DNA of 9,815 nt from assembly GCA_003497545.1 (NCBI GenBank), contig DNNT01000143.1, forward strand, positions 1 to 9,815, written 5' to 3'. Source of the DNA: Arenimonas sp. (GTDB lineage Bacteria > Pseudomonadota > Gammaproteobacteria > Xanthomonadales > Xanthomonadaceae). Below are positions 4,716 through 5,441 of the stretch, in pieces. Position numbers and translations under genes: made by a program. Under the pieces are notes generated by a model. That model was not told the DNA's origin. It saw nothing but the letters and a program-made list of their open reading frames with translations, and did not search any database. Within the stretch, counting starts at the first letter, position 1. Each line of letters begins with the position of its first letter.

Positions 4716-5441
4716 TCAGGCCACCTGCGCGCGGGCGGGGTTCAGGGTGTCCTCGACGACCTTGACGTCGCTGACGCGGATGGTGCGCCGGCAGTGAGCG
4801 GCGATGTCGGGCTCGTGCGTCACCACCACCACCGTCTGGCCGGAGCGGTGCAGTTCGTCGAACAGGGCCATGATTTCGGCCGAGGTCCTGGAATCGAGGT
4901 TGCCGGTGGGTTCGTCGGCCAGCAGGATCGAGGGGTTGCCCACCAGCGCGCGCGCCACGGCCACGCGCTGGCGCTGGCCGCCGGAGAGCTGGTGCGGGTG
5001 GCGTTCGAGCAGCGCGTCGGGCTCGGGCAGCTGCAGGCGTTCGAACAGGGCGCAGGCTTCGCGGCGCGCCTCGTCGCGGCCCAGGCCACGCAGCAGGCGA
5101 AGGCTTTCGCGCAGCTGCGCGCCGACGGTGCGCAGCGGGTGCAGGCTGGCCTGCGGGTCCTGCGGCACCCAGGCGAGGTGACGGCCGCGCAGCGCCGCGT
5201 GTTCGCGCGAGCCCAGGGCAATGTCCGCGCCCTGGCCGACCCGGAGCCGGCCGCGCGCCGACAGGCCGGGCGGCAGCAGGCCCAGGAGCGCGGCCACGGT
5301 GAGGCTCTTGCCGCTGCCGCTTTCGCCCACGAGCGCCAGGCATTCGCCGGCCGGCATCGCGAGGTCGAGCGGGCCGAGCAGGCGGCGTTGGCCCGCGTTC
5401 CCTTCCAGGCCGGTCAGGCGAAGCGCGTCTTCGGTAGCCAC
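4716..5441 (-). CDS. ABC transporter ATP-binding protein, apparent OppD/MacB-type hybrid
   Basis: The 241-residue ATPase has all core motifs: Walker A GESGSGKS (39-46), Q-loop Q94 in VPQDPQASLHPLRTVG, signature LSGGQ (152-156), Walker B LLADEP (173-178) and H-loop His209. The two halves belong to different families. Residues up to about 150 read as an oligopeptide-importer ATPase: VGESGSGKS, GLLPP, LRGRHLAWVPQDPQASLHP and the GLGRDEARREA...LPEP...HPHQLSGGQ series. From about 160 on it is MacB/LolD-like: ARALVGNPSILLADEPTGNLDSRTS and VVVTHEPDIAAHCRRT. The start is GTG at 5441-5439, directly abutting the TGA of the permease gene before it; the next gene begins one base after its own stop. All catalytic residues are present, so it should hydrolyse ATP. 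Which permease it serves cannot be told: the Q-loop region, which touches the permease coupling helix, is Opp-like, yet the following gene is MacB-like. The LSGGQ join is inferred from family motifs, not from an alignment. Confidence 0.88.
   Translation of the reverse strand: MATEDALRLTGLEGNAGQRRLLGPLDLAMPAGECLALVGESGSGKSLTVAALLGLLPPGLSARGRLRVGQGADIALGSREHAALRGRHLAWVPQDPQASLHPLRTVGAQLRESLRLLRGLGRDEARREACALFERLQLPEPDALLERHPHQLSGGQRQRVAVARALVGNPSILLADEPTGNLDSRTSAEIMALFDELHRSGQTVVVVTHEPDIAAHCRRTIRVSDVKVVEDTLNPARAQVA

Follow-up and report, generated by a model that had tools for sequence, protein, structure and literature searches.

An in-frame OppD/MacB hybrid ATPase gene in an Arenimonas draft genome, most likely an assembly misjoin at a short tract

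Results and Discussion

The ABC ATPase gene at 4716-5441 of the window joins the front half of an OppD-type importer ATPase to the rear half of a MacB-type exporter ATPase. The window is the whole 9,815-nt stretch that was analyzed (G000:C30:1-9815), from a draft Arenimonas genome (G000) of 322 contigs that is 77% complete. Judging from sequence comparisons, we conclude that the hybrid is very probably an assembly error: a short-repeat misjoin that is present in the assembled sequence and most likely not in the organism. This reading is favored because relatives carry the two parent genes at separate native loci, because complementary pieces lie at contig ends of G000, and because contig C238 of this assembly carries another hybrid ABC gene. 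The same three observations argue against the working natural chimera that an initial annotation of this DNA had considered possible.

The hybrid gene and its neighbors

The hybrid nucleotide-binding domain (NBD) is encoded on the minus strand by an ORF running from 5441 to 4716 (241 aa, GTG start). It lies directly between an oppC-type permease gene (6329-5442) and a MacB-type permease gene (4714-3494), both on the same strand, and the flanking genes change family along with the halves: oppC stands on the OppD side and the MacB-type permease on the MacB side. The features are as follows.

5442 to 6329, minus strand: oppC-type peptide importer permease (OppC model NF011935, E 1.6e-72, 244.9 bits, which does not reach the cut-off of 433; PF00528)
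4994 to 5441, minus strand: front half of an oppD-type NBD gene, with Walker A and Q-loop (92% amino acid identity to G018 OppD; DNA alignment)
4962 to 4993, minus strand: join (24-nt tract at 4962-4985; at most 32 nt including bases assignable to neither gene)
4716 to 4961, minus strand: rear half of a macB-type ATPase gene, with Walker B, D-loop and H-loop (98% amino acid identity to G018 MacB-type ATPase)
3494 to 4714, minus strand: MacB-type permease (MacB_PCD and FtsX; PF12704, PF02687; 99% identical in G018 and G022)

Residues 1-151 share 92% identity with the OppD protein of G018, versus 34% with its MacB-type ATPase; residues 161-241 share 98% identity with the G018 MacB-type ATPase, versus 47% with its OppD. 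In separate trees, one per half, the N-half falls with oppD (100/100), grouping with G018 and G022 (100/100), and in its own tree the C-half falls with macB (100/100). The initial annotation's description of an OppD-type N-half on a MacB-type C-half thus holds with full support, the halves belonging to different families, and its account of an intact frame with complete NBD motifs was also confirmed. The NBD matches importer models (NikD, YejF, OppD) as well as exporter models (MacB, YbbA, LolD), and all scores are well under the curated cut-offs among the 25 models shown of 186 matched.

OppD/YejF/GsiA-type importer ATPases, which in the nearest relatives are the first of two NBDs in one protein, resemble the hybrid in residues 1-151, in the oppC neighbor and in the motifs up to LSGGQ. 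The hybrid differs from them in having neither their rear half nor the attached second NBD, which in G000 lies on contig C162. Its likeness to MacB/LolD/YbbA-type exporter ATPases with a separate MacB-like permease is in residues 161-241 and in the permease at 3494-4714; it does not have their front half, which is found on contig C158 with the neighboring upstream gene.

Native loci in related genomes

A search of 24 other Arenimonas genomes found oppC in 16, and in all 16 oppC is directly followed by an OppD-type NBD. The front halves of these NBDs share 59-92% identity with the front half of the hybrid. Their rear halves, matched at 15 of the 16 loci and native in all 15, share only 37-52% identity with it. 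The second importer NBD was seen at 14 of the 16 loci, and both misses (G018 and G010) are at contig ends. In G022 the importer gene carries OppD and OppF parts, two NBDs in one 507-codon ORF, and the G018 importer ORF extends into the second NBD as far as the contig end.

The MacB permease was sought in 22 genomes of the genus (15 + 7), with at least 70% identity counted as presence, and is found in 14. A native MacB-type ATPase adjoins it in all 14, at a locus apart from oppC; compared with the hybrid, these ATPases are 78-98% identical in the C-half and 26-39% in the N-half. Outside these counts are G041 and G042, both for the neighbors of their OppD-type matches and for the MacB permease, and G016 and G024 for the MacB permease. 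The comparison with close relatives that the initial annotation proposed therefore finds oppD and macB-type ATPase genes at separate native loci throughout (16/16 oppC and 14/14 MacB permease loci), as a misjoin would predict.

The NBD as a whole belongs to neither family: its C-half shows 32-47% identity to the 15 native OppD C-halves readable over 75-80 residues, and its N-half 26-39% identity to the 14 native MacB-type N-halves. A full-length, high-identity match to the hybrid occurs in G000 alone among the 27 genomes of the genus. In the other 26, the best match has 54-79% identity in 18, and there is no match at 1e-60 in 8. The hybrid does not form a natural family kept as a single gene in related genomes: across these 27, the only full-length member is that of G000 itself. 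A family that is widely conserved and only seems to be mixed is ruled out, as the trees fully separate the halves and the 18 other genomes with a match hold no full-length hybrid.

One of the MacB permease orthologues (G003:C1:2562994-2564210) appears as two overlapping matches in different frames, indicating a frameshift or a sequence error.

The tract at the join

In DNA alignments, the oppD-specific match ends at base 4994, and the macB-specific match begins past the common tract, at base 4961. The switch therefore lies within 4962-4993, inside the range of 4959-4994 over LSGGQRQRV to which the initial annotation had assigned it. Positions 4962-4985 are occupied by the 24-mer TCCGGCGGCCAGCGCCAGCGCGTG, in the stretch coding for the signature motif LSGGQRQRV. 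In G018 this 24-mer is the longest exact string common to oppD and the macB ATPase gene. The corresponding genes of G015 have 23 nt in common. The longest common string in G022 measures 34 nt and is located in the second NBD, the first NBD (oppD) having no exact copy of the 24-mer.

Across the 27 genomes, the 24-mer is present in 12 and absent from 15, and it occurs at two or more places in 4: three in G018 (oppD, the macB ATPase and contig C5, to which C162 of G000 corresponds), three in G017, two in G022 (macB ATPase and second NBD) and two in G023. Its single occurrence in G000, versus three copies in G018 and two in G022, favors the misjoin, as does the unlike sequence at C162:328-357 described below. 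The exact repeat at the join was seen in G018; the native oppD of G000 is not in the assembly, and the oppD of G022 does not carry the exact tract. We infer that the G000 organism's own oppD carries the join tract, so that it is probably present in both genes of this organism.

Complementary pieces at contig ends

A DNA query from G018 ending in the macB ATPase front half matches G000:C158:1-1173 at 96% identity. Both C158:1-6053 (94%) and C30:1-5001 (95% DNA identity) are colinear with the same G018 contig, C161, and the match of C158 ends 37 nt from the start of that of C30. C158 holds the macB front half and the neighboring upstream gene, and its end falls 53 nt before the join 24-mer, as measured in G018 and in G022, not at the tract itself.

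A query from G022 covering the OppD rear half and second NBD matches C162 of G000 from the first base of the contig, at query position 490 (94%). C162 comprises the second importer NBD and downstream sequence, and is colinear with G022:C230 (95%) and with G018:C5. It starts on GTGGGCGAAAGCGGCAGCGGCAAG, a 24-mer also present within the oppD half of C30, where the following base differs; the preceding base, which lies outside C162, is not the same in C30 as in the second NBDs of G018 and G022. Because C162 begins on a 24-mer that also occurs in C30, the assembly can, this suggests, break at exact repeats of about 24 nt. Among 38 true contig ends in a pool of 23 G000 contigs, about a tenth of the genome, the start of C162 is the only one with a 24-nt exact match elsewhere in this pool, the others having 15 nt or less.

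C158 and C162 thus supply, at contig ends, two of the three pieces missing from the hybrid locus. The third, the OppD rear half, was absent from the 40 G000 candidates scored of 823, which yielded nothing closer than the macB-like stretch of C30 and ABC genes of more distant kinds. The two contigs would be expected as leftovers of a repeat-tangled assembly of two native loci.

C162 also departs from its relatives at 328-357, where the second NBD reads LSGWRHSAH versus LSGGQRQRV in G022, in unlike sequence between well-matched flanks. The second NBDs of G018 and G022 carry the join 24-mer at this very site. The stretch is likely a consensus error where relatives carry the common tract; its longest match among the loci compared is 16 nt, in G018:C34.

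A second hybrid in the same assembly

We compared 23 G000 contigs with 33 G018 stretches around ABC genes. Twenty were readable, and C75, C293 and C297 had no match in the 33 stretches. Two of the 20, C30 and C238, switch G018 locus inside an ABC gene and away from G018 contig ends. C121 also switches G018 contig, at the very ends of both contigs, so the two may simply be adjacent. The switch in C238 falls at 2430-2525, in an in-frame hybrid with a 597-codon frame whose front is ABC-F-like (G018:C53) and which continues as an unrelated ABC ATPase (G018:C73). The join is a 39-nt tract over Walker A that is identical in both G018 genes. No match spanning both parts was present among the matches listed for the 26 other genomes of the genus; at least 19 of them have the two parts as separate matches, and G009, G010 and G014 give poor matches or a match to one part alone.

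Draft assemblies are known to contain contigs misjoined at short repeats. In the present case, the assembler would exit oppD and enter the macB-type ATPase gene via the 24-32 nt tract coding for LSGGQRQRV, short k-mers presumably being the cause of the join. The real genome would then hold two native loci, one of oppC and oppDF and one of an MFP gene, the macB ATPase and the MacB permease. A join at a homologous, in-register tract would keep frame and motifs, so an intact-looking hybrid is the product to be expected of such a misjoin. C30 resembles known draft-assembly misjoins in being joined in register at a tract that G018 repeats exactly, in the complementary pieces at contig ends and in the second example in the assembly; no difference from them was found, though C158 stops 53 nt before the tract. 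That stop counts against a misjoin, as do the repetition of the 24-mer in only 4 of 27 genomes, its absence from 15 of them and from the oppD of G022, the single 24-nt repeat among the 38 contig ends, the missing OppD rear half and the existence of a similar hybrid, P0006, in another data set.

As biology, the hybrid most likely means nothing, and it is useful as a caution. Different ABC ATPase genes in these genomes have exact common tracts, 24-39 nt long, at Walker A and at the signature motif, which a draft assembly can probably turn into in-frame hybrids that have complete motifs and pass as real genes. Given two such cases in G000, plus P0006, an unbroken frame and complete motifs count for little as evidence of a real chimera.

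A similar hybrid in a metagenome contig

Protein P0006 (236 aa, from a 1734-nt metagenome contig, source ena) also has an OppD front and a MacB rear, with the same join as the window hybrid. Among the best 120 of 7961 matches in the protein collection, this arrangement occurs only in P0006 and in P0005, the window's own protein; 11 of the others are OppD-type in both halves and 107 are MacB-type in both halves. The N-half of P0006 is placed beside the G015 oppD (86/66), and its C-half, which is 95% identical to that of G023, in a clade with the macB genes of G011 and G023 (97/93). The halves are thus not of one lineage, and P0006 fits a cross-species misjoin, with modest support from these trees. 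Inheritance of the window hybrid in common with P0006 is ruled out: the two share 70% identity in the N-half and 88% in the C-half, and do not group together in either tree.

Alternative explanations

A true reciprocal recombination between the oppD and macB-type genes at the common tract would yield two hybrid operons, one of oppC with an OppD/MacB ATPase and the MacB permease, the other of the MFP gene with a MacB/OppD ATPase and the second importer NBD. Both hybrids would remain in frame. In G003, assembled as one contig, oppC lies on the plus strand at 531 kb and the MacB permease on the minus strand at 2563 kb, so that in this layout an exchange would invert the chromosome and not delete from it. 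C158 and C162 would then be the two ends of the reciprocal partner hybrid, and the contig pattern alone is not decisive, because a true exchange with assembly breaks at these repeats could produce it as well. We nevertheless consider an exchange very unlikely. No full-length hybrid is present in any of the 18 other genomes of the genus that have a match at 1e-60, the two nearest (G018 and G022) among them; another hybrid ABC gene is present in the same assembly (C238), and C162 has unlike sequence at the site in the second NBD where both of these relatives have the tract. An inversion of the chromosome in this Arenimonas strain, through recombination of two ABC ATPase genes at the signature motif and with reciprocal hybrid ATPases as the result, is highly improbable. 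Had this happened, one hybrid ATPase would couple an importer-type Q-loop half to a MacB permease.

A chimera of strains or species, with the halves of the hybrid drawn from different organisms of a mixed sample, could arise if the draft genome came from such a sample, and P0006 looks like a case of this kind. For the window hybrid it is exceedingly unlikely, as one organism explains both sides of C30: both flanks of the join match G018 at 89-96% DNA identity, the N-half falls in a group with G018 and G022, and for the C-half the closest sequence is that of G018 (98%). A misjoin between two loci of a single genome remains our preferred reading. Both flanks also look natural, since their gene orders are kept in other genomes: the RlmJ-ADH-MacB permease order of the window recurs in G015 and G002, and the order of PA protein, small ORF and oppC in G003 and G004.

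The small ORF and the PA-domain protein occupy 6432-8478 of the window, between ALAD and oppC, and have the same position in G003 and G004. At the other 14 of the 16 oppC loci in the genus, those of G018 and G022 included, ALAD is close to oppC and the small ORF and PA-domain protein are unmatched.
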